Positions 55,053-64,000 of a DNA stretch of 64,000 nt are shown here, one piece after another. Origin of the DNA: Flavobacterium tistrianum (GTDB lineage: Bacteria > Bacteroidota > Bacteroidia > Flavobacteriales > Flavobacteriaceae); the NCBI RefSeq assembly GCF_003254545.1, contig NZ_QJRH01000073.1:558001-622000 (forward strand), written 5' to 3'. Each line of letters begins with the position of its first letter. The first letter of the stretch is position 1. The translations under genes and the position numbers were made by a program. The notes under the pieces are model-generated. The model did no database searches. It saw nothing but the letters and a program-made list of their open reading frames with translations, and was not told the origin of the DNA.

Positions 55053-55065
55053 TTCTTCTATAAAT

Positions 55066-55098
55066 CAAAAGGTCATTGAACAAATCAATGACCTTTTT
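55066..55098. terminator. Bidirectional terminator between pectate lyase and argH
   Basis: A perfect 13-bp stem AAAAGGTCATTGA (55067-55079) / TCAATGACCTTTT (55085-55097), flanked by a T-run. On the argH side a TTTTTACATTTCACTTTTTA repeat fills the remaining bases up to the argH stop. Confidence 0.88.
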
Positions 55099-55133
55099 AC
55101 TTTTTACATTTCACTTTTTACATCTTACAGAAA

Positions 55134-56414
55134 TTAAAAAGCTGCTTTCATTTTATCTTTTATCGCATCAAGGCATAAATTATTAATACTGCCTTCGTGC
55201 GTGTGTTTTGTCTCTTTTGGAGATTTGTACGTTCCAGCTTCCAATTGTTCGGCAACAGCTTTGTACGCATCTCTAAACGGCATTCCTGCAACCACCATTT
55301 CGTTTAAAGTATCTACTGTAAACAAATAATCATATTTTTTATCTTCTAAAATATGATCCTTTACCGTAATATCTTTTATTGAGAAAATTGCAATATCTAA
55401 ACAAGCTTTTAGGTTTTGAATCGCTGGAAACAAACCTTCTTTTAAAAGCTGTAAATCTCTGTGATAGCCGCTTGGAAGATTATTAGTAATTAAAGTGATT
55501 TCGTAAGGAAGCGCCTGAATCTTATTGCATTTTCCTCTGATTAATTCGAAAACATCCGGATTTTTCTTGTGAGGCATAATACTAGAACCTGTTGTAAGAT
55601 GCGCTGGAAGACCAATAAAATCAAAGTTCTGGCTCATGTACAAACAAACGTCCATTGCAAATTTTGATAACGTTCCAGCAACGCTCGTCATAGCAAACGC
55701 AACTGTTTTCTCAGCTTTTCCACGACTCATTTGTGCAGCAACAGCATTGTATTTCAAAGTTTCAAAACCTAATTCCTGTGTTGTAAATGTTCTGTTGATT
55801 GGAAATGAGCTTCCGTAACCCGCAGCAGAACCTAACGGATTCTGATCTACAATTTTTGAAGCTGCGTTCAGCATTGTAATATCATCAATCAGACTTTCAG
55901 CGTAAGCAGAAAACCACATTCCGAAAGACGATGGCATTGCGATTTGCAAATGCGTATAGCCTGGCAATAAAATGTTTTGATGTTTTTCTGCCGATTCCAT
56001 CAACAAGTCAAAAAGTGTTTTAACCTGCTCTTTTATTGCTTTTAATTCGTCTTTTAAATACAAATGAACATCTACTAAAACCTGATCATTACGAGAACGC
56101 GCGGTGTGGATTTTCTTTCCAGCATCGCCTAGTTTTACAGTTAAAAGATATTCTATTTTGGAATGTACGTCTTCAAAACTGTCTTCGATTTCGAAATTTC
56201 CAACTACAATATCCGCAATAATTTCGTTTAAAGCATCAACTAAAGATGTTGTTTCTTCTGAAGTTAACAAACCAATTTGCCCAAGCATTTTAGCATGAGC
56301 GATTGAACCTAAAGCATCGTATTTTGCTAGAACCAAATCCAGTTCACGATCGTTTCCAACGGTGAATTGTTCGATTTGTTTATCTGTTGGTATTCCTTTT
56401 TCCCAAAGTTTCAT
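55134..56414 (-). CDS. argH: Argininosuccinate lyase
   Basis: A 426-residue member of the fumarase/aspartase superfamily that splits argininosuccinate into arginine and fumarate, the last step of arginine synthesis. DVHSKIEYLLTVKLGDAGKK, HTARSRNDQVLVDVHLYLKDE, GYTHLQIAMPSSFG and the catalytic loop TGSSIMPHKKNPDVFELIRGK are diagnostic. It is the last gene of the arg/pro operon. The gap to argE is a strong palindrome of the CGCCACGAATTC family. Confidence 0.94.
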   Translation of the reverse strand: MKLWEKGIPTDKQIEQFTVGNDRELDLVLAKYDALGSIAHAKMLGQIGLLTSEETTSLVDALNEIIADIVVGNFEIEDSFEDVHSKIEYLLTVKLGDAGKKIHTARSRNDQVLVDVHLYLKDELKAIKEQVKTLFDLLMESAEKHQNILLPGYTHLQIAMPSSFGMWFSAYAESLIDDITMLNAASKIVDQNPLGSAAGYGSSFPINRTFTTQELGFETLKYNAVAAQMSRGKAEKTVAFAMTSVAGTLSKFAMDVCLYMSQNFDFIGLPAHLTTGSSIMPHKKNPDVFELIRGKCNKIQALPYEITLITNNLPSGYHRDLQLLKEGLFPAIQNLKACLDIAIFSIKDITVKDHILEDKKYDYLFTVDTLNEMVVAGMPFRDAYKAVAEQLEAGTYKSPKETKHTHEGSINNLCLDAIKDKMKAAF

Positions 56415-56431
56415 AGGTTATGTTTTTTTTT

Positions 56432-56542
56432 CGCCACGAATTCACGAATTGTTTTTTAAAATCTTTTCGATTATTTTTTTCGAATTAATTCGAATTAATA
56501 TTTCATTTTTGATAGTAAAAAATAATTCGTGAATTCGTGGCG
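56432..56542. repeat. CGCCACGAATTC-family palindromic element in the argE-argH gap
   Basis: The arms CGCCACGAATTCACGAATT and AATTCGTGAATTCGTGGCG are perfect complements, extended by T- and A-runs. Between them lies the smaller palindrome CGAATTAATTCG. It begins 11-12 bases after the argE stop. Confidence 0.82.
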
Positions 56543-56554
56543 GTTTTTCTTTTC

Positions 56555-57625
56555 TTATAATTTAAAGAAACCGGTTAGTATTTTGATATACAGGTCGACT
56601 CCTTCTACAATTTCATTTACAAAAATAAATTCATCTGCTGAATGCGAACGCAATGTTTCTCCTGGTCCTAATTTCAAAGACTGACAGCTTAAAACCGATT
56701 GATCTGAAAGTGTTGGTGAACCATAAGTTGTTCTTCCTAATGAAATTCCTGCCTGAACCAAACCATGCTCGATTGGAATAGACGATGAATTCAAGTGCAT
56801 AGATCTTGGTGTTACTTCGGCATTTACGTTTGCTTTTACAACTTCCAAAATTTCAGCGTTAGTGTAACGATCTGTTACACGAATATCCACAACCAAATCA
56901 CATTCTGAAGGCACAACATTATGTTGTTTTCCAGCATTAATCTGGGTTACAGTCATTTTTACAGGACCTAAAACGTCTGAAATTTTGTCGAACTTATAGT
57001 TTTTAAACCATTCCATTACCGGAATTGATTTGTATAAAGCATTATCATCGTTTTGATGCGCCGCATGGCTTGCTGTTCCTTTTACTTTTACATCTAAAAC
57101 CAAAAGACCTTTTTCTGCAACTGCTAATTGCATTAAAGTCGGTTCACCCACAATTGCGCAATCCAATTCTGGCAAGTGTTTTAAAACGCTGTTTAAACCA
57201 TTTTTCCCGCTGCTTTCTTCTTCTGCCGAAGCAACGATAACAATATTGTGCGATAAATTTTGGTTTTCGTAAAAATATACAAATGTTGCCAATAAAGACA
57301 CTAGACATCCTCCGGCATCATTACTTCCTAAACCGAATAATTTACCGTCTTTTTCAATTGCCTTAAACGGATCGTTAGTGTAGGCTTGATTTGGTCTTAC
57401 GGTATCGTGATGTGAGTTTAATAAAAGTGTTGGTTTGTTTTCGTCGAAATATTTGTTGAAAGCCCACACATTGTTGTTTTCTCTCTTGAATGGAATTTCA
57501 TTCTGATTGAACCAATTTTCGATTAAAAGAGCCGTTTGATCTTCTTCACTTGAAAATGAAGGGGCTTCGATTAGACTTTTTAATAAACTAATTGCTTCTT
57601 GGGTAAGCGTATCTATATTTTTCAT
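56555..57625 (-). CDS. argE: N-acyl-L-ornithine (acetyl/succinyl) deacylase, M20 family
   Basis: A 356-residue zinc peptidase-fold enzyme releasing ornithine or citrulline from its N-acyl derivative. Metal ligands: His73 and Asp74 in LLNSHHDTVRPN, Asp103 in GSNDAGGCLVSL, Glu136-137 region in VASAEEESSGKNGL. A dimerisation domain follows at about 165-285. It sits between argB and argH in the arg operon. Because the operon's transcarbamylase is of the succinylornithine type, it probably acts on the N-succinyl or N-acetyl citrulline intermediate. Confidence 0.9.
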   Translation of the reverse strand: MKNIDTLTQEAISLLKSLIEAPSFSSEEDQTALLIENWFNQNEIPFKRENNNVWAFNKYFDENKPTLLLNSHHDTVRPNQAYTNDPFKAIEKDGKLFGLGSNDAGGCLVSLLATFVYFYENQNLSHNIVIVASAEEESSGKNGLNSVLKHLPELDCAIVGEPTLMQLAVAEKGLLVLDVKVKGTASHAAHQNDDNALYKSIPVMEWFKNYKFDKISDVLGPVKMTVTQINAGKQHNVVPSECDLVVDIRVTDRYTNAEILEVVKANVNAEVTPRSMHLNSSSIPIEHGLVQAGISLGRTTYGSPTLSDQSVLSCQSLKLGPGETLRSHSADEFIFVNEIVEGVDLYIKILTGFFKL

Positions 57626-57631
57626 TTCTAT

Positions 57632-57668
57632 TAGGTACTGAGATGCTAAGATTCTAAGGTTCTAAGTT
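57632..57668. repeat. CTAAG-family repeat arm in the argB-argE gap
   Basis: AGGTACTGAGATGCTAAGAT with TCTAAGGTTCTAAG lies just upstream of the argE ATG. Unlike at 58680, no complementary CTAAG arm follows; the other half of the gap is of the CCACGAATT family. Confidence 0.65.
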
Positions 57669-57767
57669 TTTTCTAAACTTATGTCACTATAGTCAATCTT
57701 AACCTAAATTTAATTGGCGCAAATTTCTTAAATTAATATTTAAAAGTACTGCGCAACTCTCTTTTTT

Positions 57768-57898
57768 TGCCACTAATTACACGAATTTTCGCAAATTATT
57801 TTTTTGTTTTAGATTTAAAATCAAAATGAACTTTTTAATGTTTATCTAAAATTATTTTCTCTTTTAACAGCAAAAATCAAAGTCAATTCGTGGCAACA
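57768..57898. repeat. GCCACTAATTACACGAATT-family palindromic element in the argB-argE gap
   Basis: The left arm TTTGCCACTAATTACACGAA and the right arm CAATTCGTGGCAACATT are imperfect complements of the CCACGAATTC family. It ends four bases from the argB stop. Confidence 0.65.
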
Positions 57899-57902
57899 TT
57901 TT

Positions 57903-58679
57903 TTACAATGTAATTGTTGTATGTGGAATATCTGAATTTTGAAGCATTTTGTGATGTCCAATTTTGATTTTCTGAACACCTCTTGATAAACTATTGAAAC
58001 AGTTATCCAATTTTGGAATCATTCCGGAATGAATTACTTTTTCTTCTTTTAGTTTTTGATATAAAGCTTCATTTATTTCTGTTATTACAGATGAATCATC
58101 TTCTGAATCTTGTAAAACGCCTTGTTTTTCGAAACAATAAGTCAGCGTAACATCAAAAACTTCAGATAAAGCAATTGATAGTTCACTTGCGATTGTATCA
58201 GCATTGGTGTTTAACAATTGTCCGTTTTTGTCGTGTGTAATAGCACAGAAAACGGGAACAACTCCAGCTTCTAATAAAGTCGCTAATAATTTTGTGTTTA
58301 CTTGTTTTACATCGCCTACAAATCCGTAATCGATTGTTGGGTGGTTTCTTTTCGTTGATTGAATTAAATTTCCGTCAGCACCAGAAAAACCAATTGCGTT
58401 ATTGTCTTTTGCCTGCAATTGCGCTACAATATGTTTGTTGATTTGTCCGGCATAAATCATCACGACAACATCAAGCATTGGAGCATCTGTAATTCGGCGT
58501 CCGTCAATCATTTGCGGAACTAATCCAATACTCTGCGCCATTTTCGTAGCCGATTTTCCACCTCCGTGAACTAAAACTTTATAGCCTTCTATTTTAGCAA
58601 AATCGGTTAAGAATTGTTCTAATTCTGCTGGATTATCGATGATGTTTCCACCTATTTTGATTACGGTAACTTTTTTCAT
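57903..58679 (-). CDS. argB: Acetylglutamate (N-acylglutamate) kinase
   Basis: A 258-residue amino-acid kinase that phosphorylates N-acylglutamate. VIKIGGNIIDNPAELEQFL is the phosphate loop, VLVHGGGKSATKMAQSIG the substrate loop, GFSGADGNLIQSTK and NTNADTIASELSIAL the C-terminal ATP region. It sits between argF' and argE. Its ATG is directly preceded by a CTAAG-family element (CTTAGTACCTC then ATG), so translation must start without a Shine-Dalgarno sequence. In Bacteroidota the kinase can act on acetyl- or succinyl-glutamate. Confidence 0.92.
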   Translation of the reverse strand: MKKVTVIKIGGNIIDNPAELEQFLTDFAKIEGYKVLVHGGGKSATKMAQSIGLVPQMIDGRRITDAPMLDVVVMIYAGQINKHIVAQLQAKDNNAIGFSGADGNLIQSTKRNHPTIDYGFVGDVKQVNTKLLATLLEAGVVPVFCAITHDKNGQLLNTNADTIASELSIALSEVFDVTLTYCFEKQGVLQDSEDDSSVITEINEALYQKLKEEKVIHSGMIPKLDNCFNSLSRGVQKIKIGHHKMLQNSDIPHTTITL

Positions 58680-58768
58680 GAGGTACTAAGTTGCTAAGGT
58701 TCTAAGGGACTAAGGCTTTTGTTAGGCAAGTTCCTTAGCATCTTAGAAACTTAGAACCTTAGCACCTC
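58680..58768. repeat. CTAAG-family palindromic element between argF' and argB
   Basis: The left arm GAGGTACTAAGTTGCTAAGG with TTCTAAGGGACTAAGG and the right arm CCTTAGCATCTTAGAAAC with TTAGAACCTTAGCACCTC are complements in register. It spans the gap exactly: it touches the argB ATG on one side and reaches within six bases of the argF' stop on the other. Confidence 0.85.
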
Positions 58769-58774
58769 AAAAAA

Positions 58775-59728
58775 CTATATTTTTTTAAGAATCTTTTGTA
58801 AAACTAATTGCGCAGAATACGTTCTATTATTTGCTTGTTCAATTACAATTGAATTTTCTCCATCTAAAACTTCATCAGTAACAATTACATTACGACGAAC
58901 CGGAAGACAGTGCATGAATTTTCCGTTGTTGGTTAAAGCCATTTTTTCAGCTGTTACTGTCCAATTTGGATCGCTGTTGGTTACTTTTCCGTAATCGTTG
59001 AAATTACTCCAATTTTTAACATAAACGAAATCGGCATTTTCGAAAGCTTTGTCTTGATCATATTCTATTTTACAATCTTGTGTGATTTCTGGACTTAGTT
59101 CGTAACCCTCTGGATGCGTGATTACAAAATCCATATCTTTTTGCATCTGCATCATTTCTACGAATGAATTAGCAACTGCCTGCGGTAATGCTTTTGGATG
59201 TGGCGCCCACGAAAGAACAACTTTTGGTTTGTTTTTGTGTCTAGGCTTGAATTCTTCCATTGTAATTGCATCTGCCAACGACTGTAATGGGTGACGAATA
59301 GCACTTTCCATATTTACGATTGGCACTGTAGCGTATTTCAAAAATCCTGAAATTACAGTTTCTTGATAATCTTTTTCTTTATCAACCAAACCTGCGAAAG
59401 CACGAATCGCAATAATATCACAGTATTGCGAAACTACTTCTGCAGCTTCTTTGATGTGTTCTGAAGCACCAGAATTCATTACCGCTCCGTCTTCAAATTC
59501 TAATGTCCATCCTTCGTTGGTAAAATTCATTACCATAACGTTCATTCCTAAGTTCATGGCCGCTTTTTGAGTACTCAAACGCGTTCTTAAACTCGGATTG
59601 AAGAATAACATTCCAAGAGTTTTATTCTTCCCTAAACTCTGATTTTTAAGCGGATTCTTTTTGATTTTGATCGCTTGTTTTACCCATTTTGATAATGAGC
59701 TGATGTCTTTTATTGAAATATAGTTCAT
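58775..59728 (-). CDS. argF': N-succinyl-L-ornithine carbamoyltransferase (Bacteroidota ArgF')
   Basis: A 317-residue transcarbamylase making N-acyl-citrulline from carbamoyl phosphate. The phosphate loop is FFNPSLRTRLSTQKAAMNLG in place of the usual STRTR, and the protein shows WTLEFEDGAVMNSGASEHIKEAA and ESAIRHPLQSLADA. The latter blocks are typical of the acetyl-/succinyl-ornithine branch, not the ordinary ornithine enzyme. The residue before EH is Ser89. As I recall, at this site Glu (Xanthomonas) specifies acetylornithine and Pro/Ser/Val specify succinylornithine, so the succinyl substrate is favoured. It lies between proB and argB. Confidence 0.88.
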   Translation of the reverse strand: MNYISIKDISSLSKWVKQAIKIKKNPLKNQSLGKNKTLGMLFFNPSLRTRLSTQKAAMNLGMNVMVMNFTNEGWTLEFEDGAVMNSGASEHIKEAAEVVSQYCDIIAIRAFAGLVDKEKDYQETVISGFLKYATVPIVNMESAIRHPLQSLADAITMEEFKPRHKNKPKVVLSWAPHPKALPQAVANSFVEMMQMQKDMDFVITHPEGYELSPEITQDCKIEYDQDKAFENADFVYVKNWSNFNDYGKVTNSDPNWTVTAEKMALTNNGKFMHCLPVRRNVIVTDEVLDGENSIVIEQANNRTYSAQLVLQKILKKI

Positions 59729-59737
59729 GTTTTTTTA

Positions 59738-59802
59738 ATTAGAAAATTTGATAATTTGATAATTAGATAATTGTGTCATTTTCTAATTATCTAATTGACT
59801 CA
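59738..59802. repeat. GATAATT-family palindromic element between proB and argF'
   Basis: The left arm AATTAGAAAATTTGATAATT with TGATAATTAGATAATTG is inverted as CATTTTCTAATTATCTAATTG. It fills the gap, ending directly at the proB stop. Related units occur in the proA-proB gap. Confidence 0.75.
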
Positions 59803-60564
59803 TTAAATTATTTTAGTAAATGGAATTTCGTCTTTCAGTGCCCGCAAAATAAAATTATCATTCAGCCCGTTAACTATCCAAGTTTCTATGTTTGCTGCTT
59901 TTGCAATTCCTGCTGCTTCGATTTTGGACTGCATTCCTCCAGTTCCGTGTGATGATTTTGAATCTCCGATTTCTTTTTCGAGCGATTTTAAATCATTTAC
60001 CAATTTAATCGTTTCCGGAACTTCGTTATGAATGGATTCTTTGGTATAAATTCCGTTTGTATTCGTTGCAATAATCAGAATATCAACATTTAAAAGAACC
60101 GCCGTTAAAGCCGCTAATTTGTCATTATCTCCGAATCGAATCTCATCTGTCGCCACGGTATCATTTTCATTGATAATCGGAATGTAATTGTTTTTAACCA
60201 ATACATTAATGGTGTTTACAATGTTCTTTTTGGTCTGCTCCTTTTCAAAATCAGAATAAGAAAGTAAACACTGAGAAGTATTCAATCCTAAATCCTTAAA
60301 ATTTTCATTGTAAATCCGCATTAAATGTGGCTGTCCGATTGAAGCTAAAGCTTGTTTTACAAAAACATCTTTATCTTGATTATCCAGTTTTACAAATTGT
60401 TTTGCCGCCGCAATTGCTCCTGAACTCACTATGATAAATTCGTATTCGTCGTTCAGAGTTGCAATCTGTATTCCAAGGTCTTCAATCTTTCCCCGCGAAA
60501 TATGATTGGTTTCTTTGGTTAAAGTATTACTTCCTATTTTTAATAAAATTCTCTTTTTTGCCAT
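59803..60564 (-). CDS. proB: Glutamate 5-kinase (no PUA domain)
   Basis: A 253-residue amino-acid kinase that phosphorylates glutamate on the way to proline. LLKIGSNTLTKETNHISRGK is the phosphate loop, FIIVSSGAIAAAKQFV and NENDTVATDEIRFGDNDKLAALTA the substrate and Asp-Asn region, and SHGTGGMQSKIEAAGIA the ATP-binding end. The usual C-terminal PUA domain of the E. coli enzyme (367 residues) is missing, as in many Bacteroidota. It is in the arg operon next to proA, linking proline and arginine synthesis from glutamate. Confidence 0.92.
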   Translation of the reverse strand: MAKKRILLKIGSNTLTKETNHISRGKIEDLGIQIATLNDEYEFIIVSSGAIAAAKQFVKLDNQDKDVFVKQALASIGQPHLMRIYNENFKDLGLNTSQCLLSYSDFEKEQTKKNIVNTINVLVKNNYIPIINENDTVATDEIRFGDNDKLAALTAVLLNVDILIIATNTNGIYTKESIHNEVPETIKLVNDLKSLEKEIGDSKSSHGTGGMQSKIEAAGIAKAANIETWIVNGLNDNFILRALKDEIPFTKII

Positions 60565-60573
60565 TTCTTTAAA

Positions 60574-60658
60574 AGATACTAAGGTTCTAAGATGCTAAGA
60601 TTCTAAGCTTTTTATAGAATTATCTAATTGCCTCAATTATCAAATTATCTCAATTATC
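60574..60658. repeat. Composite CTAAG / ATTATCTAA element between proA and proB
   Basis: The proB-side half is tandem AGATACTAAGGTTCTAAGAT with GCTAAGATTCTAAGC; the proA-side half is tandem AATTATCTAATTGCCTCAAT with TATCAAATTATCTCAATTATC. The second half is in register with the proA stop (AGATAATTGAGATAATT, with TAA the stop codon), so the repeat overlaps the coding end. The two halves are not complementary. Confidence 0.7.
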
Positions 60659-61847
60659 TAATCTGTCCTTCTCCGTAAACGTACCATTTATTGGTTACCA
60701 AATGCTGTAAACCAATTGGACCTCTTTGATGCAATTTATCTGTACTTATCGCTAATTCTCCACCTAAACCAAATTGTCCTCCATCTGTGAATCTGGTTGA
60801 AGCATTTTGATAAACTGCTGCGGCATCTATCGATTCCATAAACTGCTGAGCAGCTTCGTTATCTCTTGTAATAATTGCTGCAGAATGTCCTCCGCAGTAT
60901 TTATTAATCATATCAATGGCATGTTCCTGAGAATCAATTGTTCCGATTACGATTTTATAATCTAAGAATTCTTCGTACCAAATATCTTCGTTCTCGATGG
61001 TTTTGGTATTTTCGAAATTCTCTAACGATTTGTCGACAATTACTTCCACTTTTGATTCGACTAGAGCTTCAATCAACATTGCTGCGAAACCTTCAAAATT
61101 GGGCAGTTTAGAATCTATTAAAACTTTATCCAGAGCATTACAAGCCGAAATTTTAGATGTTTTAGCATTTAAAATTACTTTTAACGCCAAATCAGTATCT
61201 GCCTTTTCATGAACGTAAACAAAATTATTTCCTCGTCCGCTTACGATTACTGGGCAAGTCGCATGCGCTTTTACGAATTCAATTAGTTTTTCGCCTCCTC
61301 GCGGAACTATTAAATCGACTTTTTGAGTTGGTTTTTCTAAAAATGCCTGAGTTTCTGTTCTGTTATAGTTCAGATATTCTACCCAGTCTTTTGAAACTCC
61401 ATTTTCTTCTAAAGCTTTATGCCAAAGACTTACGATTTTCAAGTTTGATTTTAAAGACTCTTTTCCTCCTTTTAATAAAATCTTATTTCCAGATTTAAAA
61501 GCAATTCCGCCCGCTTCGATTGTAACATCTGGACGAGATTCATAAATAATTAAAATCGTTCCGAAAGCAGCTGTTTTATTCACTACTTTAATTCCATTAT
61601 CATGAGTAAAATGAAAACGCTCAATACCGATGGGATCTTCCTGTGAAGCTAACTGATTAAGCGATAAAATCATTTCATCTACTTTTTTATCATCTACTTT
61701 CAGGCGTTCTTCCATCGCTAAATCTGAACCGTCGTAATCAGTAAGATCTTCTTGATTGGTCAAGATTATCTCATTCCGCTCCTGTTCGACCAGCTTTGCC
61801 ATAGTCCGCAAAACAGCGTTGCGTGTTTCAATTGATAATGGTTTCAT
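60654..61847 (-). CDS. proA: Gamma-glutamyl phosphate reductase
   Basis: A 397-residue aldehyde-dehydrogenase-fold enzyme reducing gamma-glutamyl phosphate to glutamate-5-semialdehyde. ESRPDVTIEAGGIAFKSGN carries the NADPH region, LIVPRGGEKLIEFV the middle block, and the active-site Cys236 is in SKISACNALDKVLID. GGHSAAIITRDNEAAQQFM and STRFTDGGQFGLGGELAIST complete the family pattern. It is upstream of proB in the arg operon; its last codons run directly into a GATAATT-type repeat. Confidence 0.93.
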   Translation of the reverse strand: MKPLSIETRNAVLRTMAKLVEQERNEIILTNQEDLTDYDGSDLAMEERLKVDDKKVDEMILSLNQLASQEDPIGIERFHFTHDNGIKVVNKTAAFGTILIIYESRPDVTIEAGGIAFKSGNKILLKGGKESLKSNLKIVSLWHKALEENGVSKDWVEYLNYNRTETQAFLEKPTQKVDLIVPRGGEKLIEFVKAHATCPVIVSGRGNNFVYVHEKADTDLALKVILNAKTSKISACNALDKVLIDSKLPNFEGFAAMLIEALVESKVEVIVDKSLENFENTKTIENEDIWYEEFLDYKIVIGTIDSQEHAIDMINKYCGGHSAAIITRDNEAAQQFMESIDAAAVYQNASTRFTDGGQFGLGGELAISTDKLHQRGPIGLQHLVTNKWYVYGEGQIR

Positions 61848-61860
61848 TTTTTTAGTTTAA

Positions 61861-61918
61861 TTGGTTAATCGTCAATTCGTTTAATCGATTAACCAGTTAA
61901 ACGATTAAACGAATTAAC
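61861..61918. repeat. TTAATCG-family palindromic element between argD and proA
   Basis: The segment GGTTAATCGTCAATTCGTTT with AATCGATTAACCAGTTAAAC and GATTAAACGAATTAAC shows multiple inverted TTAATCG/CGATTAA units. It lies between the proA ATG and the argD stop, 17 bases from the latter. Confidence 0.72.
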
Positions 61919-61932
61919 AGTGTAAGTCAAAC

Positions 61933-63072
61933 TTAGTTTTTAAGTTCTTCCAAACTTTCTTTCAACGCTTTTACAAACGTGTCGATATCTGCTTTTTTCA
62001 CAGTTAAAGGAGGTAAAATTCTCAATAGATTTTTATTGTTTGCGCTTCCTGTAAAAATGTGCTTTTCGATAATTAATTTCTTTCTTAAAGCTGCTACATC
62101 AAAATCAAACTCCACTCCAAGCATCAAGCCTTTTCCTTTTACTTGTTTGATTCCGTCAACTTCTTTGATTTTCTCTAAGAAATATTCGTAAACTTCATTT
62201 ACATTCTTTTGTAAATCAAGCTTTTCAATTACATCTAAAACTGCAATTCCTGCTGCACAAGACAAGTGGCTTCCGCCGAAAGTAGTTCCTAATAATCCGA
62301 AACTTGCTTCAAATTTTGGAGAAATTAAAATCGCTCCAACAGGGAAACCGTTCCCCATTCCTTTTGCAACTGAAATAATATCAGCGTTGATTCCGTGATG
62401 TTGGAAAGCAAAGAATTTACCGCTTCTTCCATATCCTGACTGTACTTCGTCTAAGATTAAAACTACATCGTATTTTTTACATGCTTTTTCTAAAGCCTGA
62501 AAAAACTCTGTAGTTCCTTGGTCTAAACCTCCAACTCCTTGAATTCCTTCGATAATTACAGCTGTAACATCTCCTTTAGCTAATTCATTTTCAACCAATT
62601 CGATTTGGTTTAGTGGTAAAAACGTTACTTCTTGCTGTGCATTTATTGGAGCAACAATTTTTTTATTGTCTGTAACCGCAACTGCTGCAGAAGTTCTTCC
62701 ATGGAAAGAGTTCTGAAAAGCCACTACTCTTGATTTTCCGTTATGGAAAGAAGCTAATTTTAAAGCATTTTCGTTGGCTTCAGCTCCAGAACTGCATAAA
62801 AATAATTCGTAATCTTCAAGACCTGAAAGTTTTCCTAATTTCTGAGCCAATTCAACCTGCAAAGGATTCTGAATGGCATTAGAATAAAATCCTAAATTAT
62901 CTATCTGATTTTTAAGTTTAGCTACATAATCTGGCTGTGTGTGTCCGATAGAAATCACACCATGTCCGCTGTATAAATCTAAATATTCTACTCCTTTGTC
63001 GTCAATGATTGTACAATCTACTGCTTTTACTGGAGTTATGTCGTATAATGGGTAAACGTTGAATAAGTTCAT
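61933..63072 (-). CDS. argD: Acyl-ornithine aminotransferase (class III)
   Basis: A 379-residue PLP enzyme that transaminates N-acyl-glutamate semialdehyde to N-acyl-ornithine. GVEYLDLYSGHGVISIGHTQ, ELFLCSSGAEANENALKLA, NSFHGRTSAAVAVT, and VLILDEVQSGYGRSGKFFAFQH are typical. PLP-lysine is Lys237 in ISVAKGMGNGFPVGA. Located between argC and proA. In Bacteroidota it can take acetyl or succinyl derivatives; the succinyl form is favoured by the transcarbamylase downstream. The gap to argC is a GTTGGTTGATT palindrome. Confidence 0.92.
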   Translation of the reverse strand: MNLFNVYPLYDITPVKAVDCTIIDDKGVEYLDLYSGHGVISIGHTQPDYVAKLKNQIDNLGFYSNAIQNPLQVELAQKLGKLSGLEDYELFLCSSGAEANENALKLASFHNGKSRVVAFQNSFHGRTSAAVAVTDNKKIVAPINAQQEVTFLPLNQIELVENELAKGDVTAVIIEGIQGVGGLDQGTTEFFQALEKACKKYDVVLILDEVQSGYGRSGKFFAFQHHGINADIISVAKGMGNGFPVGAILISPKFEASFGLLGTTFGGSHLSCAAGIAVLDVIEKLDLQKNVNEVYEYFLEKIKEVDGIKQVKGKGLMLGVEFDFDVAALRKKLIIEKHIFTGSANNKNLLRILPPLTVKKADIDTFVKALKESLEELKN

Positions 63073-63083
63073 TTTTTCTTTTT

Positions 63084-63162
63084 AGTTGTTGGTTGATTGT
63101 TGTTGGTTGATGGTCTTATCTGATGTTTCCATCAACTATAAACCAACAACTATCAACTATTA
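63084..63162. repeat. GTTGGTTGATT-family palindromic element between argC and argD
   Basis: The left arm GTTGTTGGTTGATTGTTGTT with GGTTGATGG and the right arm CCATCAACTATAAACCAACA with ACTATCAACTAT are imperfect complements. The right arm ends at the argC TAA stop. Confidence 0.75.
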
Positions 63163-64000
63163 TTAAAATCCGCTTGGTTTCAAATGTAAACCTGTGGTTT
63201 CTTCTAATCCGAACATTAAATTCATGTTTTGAATTGCTTGTCCCGAAGCACCTTTGGTTAAGTTATCGATAATTGATGTTATGAGAACCCGGTTTCCTTT
63301 TTTCAATAAACTAATAATACATTTATTCGTCTGAACCACTTGTTTCATGTTGATGTTTGTTGTGGTAACGGTTACGAAAGGCTCATTTTTATAGAACTCT
63401 TCGTATTTTGCTACTAATTGTTCCAAACTATCATCGCAAACTGTATATAAAGTTGCAAAAATTCCTCTTGGAAAATCTCCTCTGTTCGGAATAAAAAGCA
63501 ATTCGCTGTCAAAATCATCTTGCAACTGAACCAAACTTTCTGAAATTTCACCTAAATGTTGGTGTTCAAAAGCTTTATAATGCGAAAAATTATTGTTTCT
63601 CCAGCTAAAATGAGAAGTCTCTGAAAGACTTACGCCTGCTCCTGTGCTTCCTGTTGTTGCATTAATATGAACGTCATTATTCAGCAAATTGTGCTCTGCC
63701 AATGGCAATAAAGCCAATTGAATAGCGGTTGCAAAACAACCTGGATTTGCGATATAATTTGCTTTTTTAATTTCCGCTTTATTGATTTCCGGCAATCCGT
63801 AAATGAAATCTTTTCCTTCAAAATGAGCATCTTTATTCAATCTGAAATCGTTTCCTAAATCAATAATTTTGGTATGACTTGCAAACTGATTTTCTTTCAA
63901 AAATGAAATTGATTTCCCGTGACCTAAACACAAGAAAACAACATTCACATTTGGATTGATTTCGGCTGTGAAATTCATTTCAATATCGCCCATCAAATCA
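63163..64000 (-). CDS. argC: N-acyl-gamma-glutamyl-phosphate reductase, 3' part (runs off the window)
   Basis: The C-terminal 278 codons of ArgC, which reduces N-acyl-glutamyl phosphate to the semialdehyde. DLMGDIEMNF begins the visible part, with NVVFLCLGHGKSISFL, IANPGCFATAIQLALLPLAE containing the active-site Cys, GSTGAGVSLSETSHFSWRNNN and ASGQAIQNMNLMFGLEETTGL. The frame is open to the window edge, so the start is outside. It is the first visible gene of the argC-argD-proA-proB-argF'-argB-argE-argH operon. Confidence 0.93.
   Translation of the reverse strand, partial: DLMGDIEMNFTAEINPNVNVVFLCLGHGKSISFLKENQFASHTKIIDLGNDFRLNKDAHFEGKDFIYGLPEINKAEIKKANYIANPGCFATAIQLALLPLAEHNLLNNDVHINATTGSTGAGVSLSETSHFSWRNNNFSHYKAFEHQHLGEISESLVQLQDDFDSELLFIPNRGDFPRGIFATLYTVCDDSLEQLVAKYEEFYKNEPFVTVTTTNINMKQVVQTNKCIISLLKKGNRVLITSIIDNLTKGASGQAIQNMNLMFGLEETTGLHLKPSGF

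Follow-up and report, generated by a model that had tools for sequence, protein, structure and literature searches.

Probable intervening-sequence-like elements in the gaps of an arg/pro operon of Flavobacterium tistrianum

Introduction

All seven gaps of an arg/pro operon in Flavobacterium tistrianum are filled by repeat elements, and these are probably intervening-sequence-like (IVS-like) elements of mRNA, present here in forms without an open reading frame (ORF), whose stems RNase III would cleave. The operon lies in a window, the whole stretch of DNA that was analysed, of 64,000 nucleotides. Under this reading, a full element would consist of inverted arms built from several imperfect 7-8-nt words with an ORF for S23, a four-helix-bundle protein, between them. 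A sister group would have 8-10-nt words of the CACAGATT/CGGATT/CACGAATT type and an ORF for GxxExxY, a PD-(D/E)XK-like protein. The elements of the arg/pro operon would be the ORF-less forms.

Organization of the operon and its gaps

The original prediction placed repeat elements of five unit families in all seven gaps, and on both counts it was borne out: the gaps measure 74-277 nt and the families are GTTGATA (7 nt), TTAATCG (8 nt), GATAATT (8 nt), CTAAGNNN (8 nt) and CACGAATT (Table 1). The argF'-argB element also has the extent ascribed to it, from six bases past a TAG to the ATG of argB. A palindrome in every gap, which had likewise been claimed, holds for six gaps. When each gap was compared with 200 dinucleotide shuffles, no shuffle folded as stably as the gap itself in five cases and a single one did in argB-argE (z -3.3 to -9.9), whereas proA-proB has no hairpin (z +0.5, with 141 of 200 shuffles folding at least as well) and consists of two half-elements of different families, one GATAATT-family arm followed by one CTAAG-family arm, with strong 8-nt periodicity (0/200 shuffles). 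In five gaps the 7/8-nt periodicity was stronger than in any of the 200 shuffles; by this comparison it was absent from argB-argE and argE-argH, both of which hold CACGAATT-type elements.

Table 1. The operon and its gap elements in window coordinates; z and shuffle counts refer to folding energy.
Feature	Positions	Strand	Length (nt)	Content	z	Shuffles
Host operon	55134..63993	-		argC, argD, proA, proB, argF', argB, argE, argH; names by resemblance; argC cut at window end
argC-argD gap	63073..63162	-	90	GTTGATA-word (7 nt) hairpin; arms 63083-63106 and 63129-63152	-5.4	0/200
argD-proA gap	61848..61932	-	85	TTAATCG-word (8 nt) palindrome; arms 61871-61893 and 61896-61918	-5.6	0/200
proA-proB gap	60565..60653	-	89	mosaic, no hairpin; CTAAG arm ~60574-60610, GATAATT arm ~60618-60652	+0.5	
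proB-argF' gap	59729..59802	-	74	GATAATT-word (8 nt) hairpin	-3.9	0/200
argF'-argB gap	58680..58774	-	95	CTAAGNNN-word (8 nt) hairpin	-7.4	0/200
argB-argE gap	57626..57902	-	277	CACGAATT-type hairpin ~57769-57894; single CTAAG arm by argE (57633-57669)	-3.3	1/200
argE-argH gap	56415..56554	-	140	CACGAATTCACGAATT hairpin; arms 56432-56463 and 56511-56542, 91% complementary	-9.9	0/200

The element families of the window occur genome-wide and are not special to the arg/pro operon, since the CTAAG triple word matched the genome 65 times (overlaps counted) against 1 match for a reversed control pattern. An intrinsic terminator was considered and rejected for the window hairpins, as the 3' arm is, by reading, followed by A-rich sequence or an ATG rather than a T run. 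The provision of stop codons in every reading frame was weighed as a possible function and set aside. Rfam gave 0 matches in the window at the gathering score, and a literature search on palindromic repeats of Flavobacterium and Bacteroidetes found nothing on these elements.

S23 and GxxExxY reading frames between inverted arms

A set of 106 S23 loci, some overlapping and a small number belonging to other families of the order, yielded 108 frames, of which 102 were kept once duplicates, frames of odd length and frames close to a locus end had been dropped. Inverted arms surround the S23 ORF in 81 of the 102 at no more than 1 in 100 shuffles, compared with 11 of 190 control genes, which were unpurged of S23 or GxxExxY genes; the remaining 21 lack arms at this level. 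With one random member drawn per gap, a mean of 34.9 of 43 distinct gaps have arms. These tests supersede an initial one, in which 17/30 GxxExxY and 18/30 S23 ORFs exceeded the 95th percentile of 127 control ORFs and 3 and 4, respectively, the 99th. Flank-to-flank pairing is better than that of either flank with itself in 79 of the 81 significant loci. At least one flank folds on itself in 39 of these 81 and both do in 6, so some S23 ORFs may sit beside or between complete hairpins and not in a loop; placement in the loop is clearest in the 42 loci where neither flank folds on itself. The arms are periodic at 7, 8 and 14 nt. Same-strand ORFs lie on both sides of 98/101 S23 ORFs versus 70/131 control genes. 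Of 46 genomes of the genus, 45 have 1-10 copies of S23 each, and ORF-less hairpins are far more numerous.

GxxExxY ORFs lie between inverted arms in 25 of 33 cases. In relatives, the proB-argF' gap often contains such an ORF between paired arms; in 20 of the 21 alleles tested the best pairing of the arms is the one that spans the ORF, and a composite of the ORFs matches both GxxExxY models, TIGR04256 and PF13366 (PDDEXK_3). One relative (L139) has at this gap 156 nt that, by eye, show these arms but no ORF. At one further gap, S23 is present in 10 of 30 loci, a relic in L312 and, by reading, ORF-less hairpins in L318 and L316. The ORF-bearing and ORF-less forms are evidently alleles of one site, both at proB-argF' and at this further gap. 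The portions of the literature searched contained no description of GxxExxY genes between hairpin arms.

All five window-family words recur beside S23 or GxxExxY ORFs, two cleanly and three less so, a kinship of short degenerate words and hand-made patterns rather than long alignments. Within significant S23 arms, CTAAG was found at 4 loci and TTAATCG, GATAATT and GTTGATA at 2 each. Clean ties to S23 exist for CTAAG (L181), TTAATCG (L194), CAAAG and GTTTCAA; the S23 loci with GATAATT (L206, L217), those with GTTGATA (L263, L282) and one of the two with TTAATCG (L213) have self-folding flanks. In the same genome, the CACGAATT word adjoins a GxxExxY ORF (L222), which is preceded by a complete hairpin. 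Among S23 pairs in different gaps, as judged from downstream sequence only, arm words are shared in 44-100% by identity bin at 60% identity or more (n=43) and in 1-4% below 50% identity (n=2953). The link between S23 identity and word sharing was reached in 0 of 500 Mantel permutations; over the whole set of different-gap pairs the two show no rank correlation (Spearman -0.0003). Unrelated sequence lies on both sides in 33 S23 pairs of at least 65% identity. The window hairpins are likely kin of the S23 and GxxExxY elements.

The same gaps in related genomes

The gaps were compared across 80 related loci (81 including the window), giving 552 gap alleles; gene starts were placed near the tblastn expectation with TTG and GTG allowed, and some gap ends, such as those at argB starts, are off. 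Comparison of the same gaps had been suggested with the original prediction, and the positions do stay filled while unit families differ, the alleles being mostly non-homologous between species.

Such constancy may reflect host-selected punctuation, in which hairpins are kept because they process, stabilise or insulate sections of the operon mRNA, their origin being a secondary matter, an explanation that we regard as possible, though short of probable. It gains from the near absence of empty gaps within the clade (3 of 552 alleles below 45 nt), from an argF-argB gap that is at least 68 nt in all 81 loci yet 0 nt, or replaced by overlapping genes, in 9 of the 20 loci from beyond the clade, and from the rarity of strong inverted repeats in gaps that bear promoters between divergent genes (7 of 88 at a scan score of 20, a score of 16 being too loose and often reached by shuffles). 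In 23 of 24 allele clusters, moreover, variation is lower at paired than at unpaired positions, each structure being that of a single member and the alleles being limited to those up to about 330 nt and free of N. Low variation at paired positions and rarely empty gaps are consistent with a role at the RNA level, and the intercistronic function proposed originally is to that extent partly right. Compensatory changes, however, are few: with single-member structures, every cluster has more broken pairs than two-sided changes. The covariation analysis was redone with these because RNAalifold favours conserved columns, and the signal became weaker; two-sided changes are prominent only with RNAalifold, chiefly in elements of the AACCTGWCAGG and AGCTAATCCCG kinds, both absent from the seven window gaps. 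Empty or very short alleles exist as well (argD-proA in L031 and L056, proB-argF in L066), and more distant relatives run the same operon with genes that are often tight or overlapping at these gaps. Gapless versions of the operon, named at the outset, given unchanged expression ratios, as evidence against a function, are therefore present among relatives; together with the non-homologous alleles and the ORF-bearing elements of the same build at the same sites, they also lend partial support to repeated insertion at tolerant sites, the other reading offered originally.

If the insertions were simply neutral, at a site tolerant of disruption and with alleles mixed between species by short-tract recombination, one would understand why allele class, labelled by hand-made word patterns, switches along the gene tree at the rate of shuffled labels in four of the five gaps scored (proA-proB and argB-argE being too composite to be given a single label), why the link between allele class and coding sequence, where present, lies mainly within ~18-60 nt of the gap, and why alleles at least 92% identical are found between species with a coding identity of ~0.90, a comparison whose contrast sets comprise only 7 (argB-argE) and 8 (argE-argH) pairs. 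Deletion to short gaps should then be frequent but is rare, and the lower variation of paired positions is unexpected, so we consider this explanation rather unlikely. Mutation by template switching in quasi-palindromes might produce the symmetry of the arms with no element at all; both arms of most alleles do use one word family, and CTAAG and CAAAG alleles have their ends and several triplets in common. It is nevertheless improbable, as it leaves unexplained the S23 and GxxExxY ORFs between arms, the cross-gap linkage of word and protein and the proA-proB mosaic. REP/BIME, ERIC and NEMIS elements resemble those of the window in being dispersed hairpins in gaps, and NEMIS are RNase III substrates; to our knowledge, none has tandem 7-8-nt words or an S23 or GxxExxY ORF. 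The dispersed, palindromic and intergenic character of the window elements, and their position 3' of genes, as with REPs, would suit REP/BIME-type or transposase-borne MITE elements. This origin is nonetheless very improbable, since the ORFs between arms are S23 or GxxExxY and since reading of the arms showed no 20-40-nt palindrome with a terminal GTAG or CGTC, these being the REP end tags according to the available part of PMC3733652.

Comparison with known systems

The IVSs of 23S rRNA, as described in the available part of PMC4990558, have a terminal inverted-repeat hairpin, an optional sense S23 ORF in its loop, conserved sites and a sporadic distribution. Here, terminal inverted-repeat stems were found in 6 of 7 window gaps and 81 of 102 S23 loci, the S23 ORF in the loop occurs in ORF-bearing relatives, the window elements being ORF-less, and varied occupants appear sporadically at the same sites. 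The location differs, however, as all window elements lie between protein-coding genes and not in helix 9, 25 or 45 of 23S rRNA; their words are lineage-specific, and RNase III excision is a prediction. The same source reports heptameric direct repeats in the 5' part of the Coxiella IVS, before the ORF, and a Coxiella S23 protein that is probably not made. S23 (PF05635) resembles Avd of diversity-generating retroelements in sequence and structure, according to the part of PMC10053308 available. The TAACTGA and other heptamer repeats of Beggiatoaceae, Cyanobacteria and some Bacteroidetes (PMC4679880) are likewise short tandem gap words, often by start codons, but they are described as direct repeats, and 'S23' occurs 0 times in the text available from that paper.

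Proposed mechanism and significance

The IVS-like reading, which we prefer, would work as follows. Lying between same-strand genes, the elements are probably co-transcribed and, as their sequence and computed folding suggest, would form double-stranded stems that RNase III would cut as in 23S rRNA IVSs. Cutting would make an insertion harmless and split the operon mRNA into pieces, and any family might serve equally well, which would explain the swaps of non-homologous families at a fixed site across species. We also suggest, tentatively and as a conjecture more doubtful than not, a widespread class of mobile elements acting at the RNA level, in which each lineage of S23, an Avd-like pentamer, would recognise and propagate its own 7-8-nt word, insert in sense between co-transcribed genes and shed ORF-less, mRNA-cutting hairpins into operon gaps. 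The IVSs of 23S rRNA would then be a special case that landed in rRNA, and GxxExxY a second, independent protein with 8-10-nt words.

If this is true, S23 and GxxExxY, both abundant protein families of no known function, would have a home, many intergenic hairpins of Flavobacterium would be explained, and the 23S rRNA intervening sequences would become members of a larger group of elements. The tie of word to protein lineage would give a direct handle on what S23 may bind, and the operon would offer a natural series in which hairpins of unrelated sequence are swapped at fixed places.

Gap elements of the arg/pro operon

The hairpins in the gaps of the arg/pro operon, read on the sense strand, have arms that each consist of several imperfect copies of one short word. 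The word GTTGATA recurs with a period of 7 nt, and TTAATCG, GATAATT and CTAAGNNN with a period of 8; CACGAATT is the fifth word family. Against 200 dinucleotide shuffles per gap, at most one shuffle folds as well as the native sequence in six of the seven gaps (z -3.3 to -9.9). The original prediction that repeat elements of five families occupy all seven gaps is thus borne out, with one correction: the proA-proB gap folds no better than its 200 dinucleotide shuffles (z +0.5) and is a mosaic in which a single GATAATT arm precedes a single CTAAG arm, without a hairpin fold.

Features of the operon and its surroundings
Feature	Position or strand	Length (nt)	Remark
argC-argD-proA-proB-argF'-argB-argE-argH	minus strand		gene names as in the original prediction
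argC-argD gap		90	
argD-proA gap		85	
proA-proB gap		89	
proB-argF' gap		74	
argF'-argB gap		95	
argB-argE gap		277	
argE-argH gap		140	
Hairpin between argH and the convergent gene	window 55053-55133		ordinary-looking terminator (AAAAGGTCATTG...CAATGACCTTTT), differing from the operon elements
S23 ORF relic	own-genome contig, G000:C71:636238-636486		four stops; about 14 kb past the window

Both the hairpins and their words also occur outside this operon. The CTAAG triple word has 65 matches in the same genome, overlaps included, against 1 for the reversed pattern. It is found in 30 of 81 sampled genomes of the genus, where counts of 8-155 are confined to genomes of at least 4.0 Mb, smaller genomes have 0-4 and a few larger ones 0 or 1; in a phylum sample it occurs in 7 of 148 genomes. 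Across 80 relative loci and the window, inverted repeats scoring at least 20 lie in 348 of 793 same-strand gaps (114 when each gap is represented by the best of 15 shuffles), in 119 of 146 convergent gaps (18) and in 7 of 88 divergent gaps (48). Because the loci are homologous, these counts are not independent of one another. At a looser score, the counts for 464 kb of the same genome, uncorrected by shuffling, are 85 of 176 gaps between same-strand genes, 34 of 40 between convergent ones and 16 of 43 between divergent ones.

The same gaps in related species

In 80 Flavobacterium loci and the window, the gaps stay filled: only 3 of 552 alleles are shorter than 45 nt, 12 are without any assigned family label, and 45 exceed 330 nt, an ORF being present in many of the latter. 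Some alleles are nearly empty, as in argD-proA of L031 and L056 (loci are numbered with L). At any one gap the word families vary from species to species. The argF-argB gap has CAAAG in 42 of 81 loci and CTAAG in 38, the one remaining locus having an inserted ORF; argC-argD has GTTTCAA, TTAATCG, GTTANNA or GTTGATA; and proB-argF' has GATAATT, TTAATCG or CACGAATT hairpins or long, ORF-holding alleles. Clustering at 82% identity gave 14, 11, 30, 12, 12, 11 and 17 allele clusters per gap.

Several further features were seen in these gaps. The CTAAG and CAAAG alleles of argF-argB have their ends and several variable triplets in common, as if a single base had been altered in every unit simultaneously. 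Arms of the CCCTCTCC/CCCTCCCC...GGAGGGGG type form another hairpin family, found in argC-argD of L074, L139, L140 and L141 and also in L306 and L311. In 33 of 81 loci argE-argH contains a dispersed element bounded by AGCTAATCCCGCTATCCG...CTATCGGGGCTA; its stems have many two-sided changes in an RNAalifold run biased to conserved columns, and it may thus represent a separate structured RNA. In L030 and L062 an ORF of some 333 aa, RhuM-type by eye, is inserted into this gap.

The original prediction had counted gapless relatives with unchanged expression ratios against its reading, and as to presence such gapless relatives exist: of 20 loci taken from other Flavobacterium genomes and from further genera, 9 have argF and argB overlapping or directly abutting (0 nt). 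In L143-L149, 24 of 43 gaps are shorter than 30 nt, and argC-argD measures 819-975 nt in six of the seven, where it probably holds another gene. Other gaps in these 20 loci contain further words of the same build. The argC-argD and argF-argB gaps of L150, from another genus, have such hairpins with words not seen in the arg gaps of Flavobacterium; the build may thus have a wider distribution than the words.

Allele history and structural constraint

Changes of allele class (the family label) were counted in five gaps on an eight-gene tree of 77 loci and compared with shuffled labels. Four gaps were at the shuffled level (31 against a mean of 31.9, 36 against 35.1, 40 against 39.6 and 26 against 26.7); argE-argH had fewer changes (32 against 37.8, with 3 of 200 shuffles as low). 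Class was linked to coding sequence in argD-proA, proB-argF and argF-argB, mainly within about 18-60 nt of the gap, and no link to flanking coding sequence was seen in argC-argD or argE-argH. Where two species have alleles that are at least 92% identical, their flanks have in most gaps returned to about the level seen in other pairs by 15-60 nt from the gap. Alleles have thus been either swapped over short tracts or substituted at the site.

When structure was taken from single cluster members and diversity from the remaining members, unpaired positions were more variable than paired ones in 23 of 24 allele clusters (Wilcoxon p 4e-7). Covariation of base pairs lends weak support, because each of the 24 clusters has more broken pairs than two-sided changes. 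Stronger-looking covariation in an earlier RNAalifold run was discounted, the method being biased to conserved columns.

ORFs between hairpin arms

The S23 family (TIGR02436; solved relative 2gsc, E 1.4e-13 for a 60-residue start) is present in 45 of 46 sampled genomes of the genus at 1-10 copies each. From 106 loci 102 ORFs were kept, with 190 genes as controls. Inverted arms surround 81 of the 102 at no more than 1 of 100 shuffles (controls, 11 of 190) and 89 at no more than 5 (controls, 16). The ORFs represent 43 distinct gaps, 39 with at least one significant member; with one random member per gap, 34.9 of 43 were significant on average. In 79 of the 81 significant loci the flanks pair mutually better than either does with itself. 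Self-folding flanks are nonetheless found in 39 of the 81 (both flanks in 6, none in the other 42), so complete hairpins may stand next to some S23 ORFs or on both sides of them. Self-similarity in the arms is raised at 7, 8 and 14 nt, and same-strand ORFs stand on both sides of 98 of 101 S23 ORFs, compared with 70 of 131 control genes.

Words of the arg/pro operon recur in significant S23 arms (CTAAG in 4 loci; TTAATCG, GATAATT and GTTGATA in 2 each), as do CAAAG (6), TAGATTT (5) and GTTTCAA (3). The link is clean, without a self-folding flank, for CTAAG (L181), TTAATCG (L194), CAAAG and GTTTCAA; loci with GATAATT and GTTGATA have a self-folding upstream flank. In one gap followed by reading across 30 genomes, S23 is present in 10 loci with CAAAG (5), CTAAG (4) or GTTTAAA (1) arms and is a relic in L312, hairpins without an ORF occur in L318 (CAAAG) and L316 (other words), and the remaining loci have other or no hairpins. 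The forms with and without an ORF are thus alleles at a single site.

A second family, GxxExxY, occupies the long proB-argF' alleles: 30 of 77 exceed 330 nt, and 24 of these contain, by reading, all or part of its ORF, a composite of which matches PF13366 (E 1.2e-38) and TIGR04256 (E 1.1e-37). Arms of CGGATT words pair over about 60-75 nt around the ORF in the six alleles inspected, and pairing across it was stronger than inside either flank in 20 of 21 tested. By eye, the 156-nt proB-argF' gap of L139 has arms of this kind but lacks the ORF. Overall, 25 of 33 GxxExxY loci have arms and 29 of 33 lie between same-strand ORFs; arm self-similarity peaks at 9-10 nt, with a small excess. In the genome of the window, CACGAATT and CACAGATT adjoin GxxExxY ORFs, but L222 has a complete CACGAATT hairpin upstream of the ORF and a further arm downstream.

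Probable relation to intervening sequences

S23 protein and arm word travel together. Among S23 pairs from different gaps, arm words are shared in 44-100% by bin at identities of at least 60% (n=43), in 12% at 50-60% (n=119) and in 1-4% below 50% (n=2953); the Mantel test gave 0 of 500 permutations, and across all pairs taken together there is no rank correlation. Both sides are unrelated in sequence in 33 S23 pairs of at least 65% identity, and among the best 16 of these most visibly have arm words in common. This linkage is the trace expected of an element moving with its arms, and does not indicate the mode of movement.

In the open PMC literature, judged by titles, abstracts and some passages, no description of S23 or GxxExxY ORFs between intergenic hairpin arms was recognised, nor one of these Flavobacterium hairpins; given that coverage, the absence is not proof of novelty. 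The intervening sequences (IVSs) of 23S rRNA are described as hairpins at fixed sites, with an optional S23 ORF and excised by RNase III, and that of Coxiella as having heptameric repeats upstream of its ORF (PMC4990558). By site the gap elements fall outside this rRNA group, but they are similar in build and have the S23 protein in common with it. The best reading is that they are IVS-like elements of mRNA, which RNase III would be expected to cut. Since S23 resembles Avd of diversity-generating retroelements (PMC10053308), an RNA-based route of movement is worth testing.
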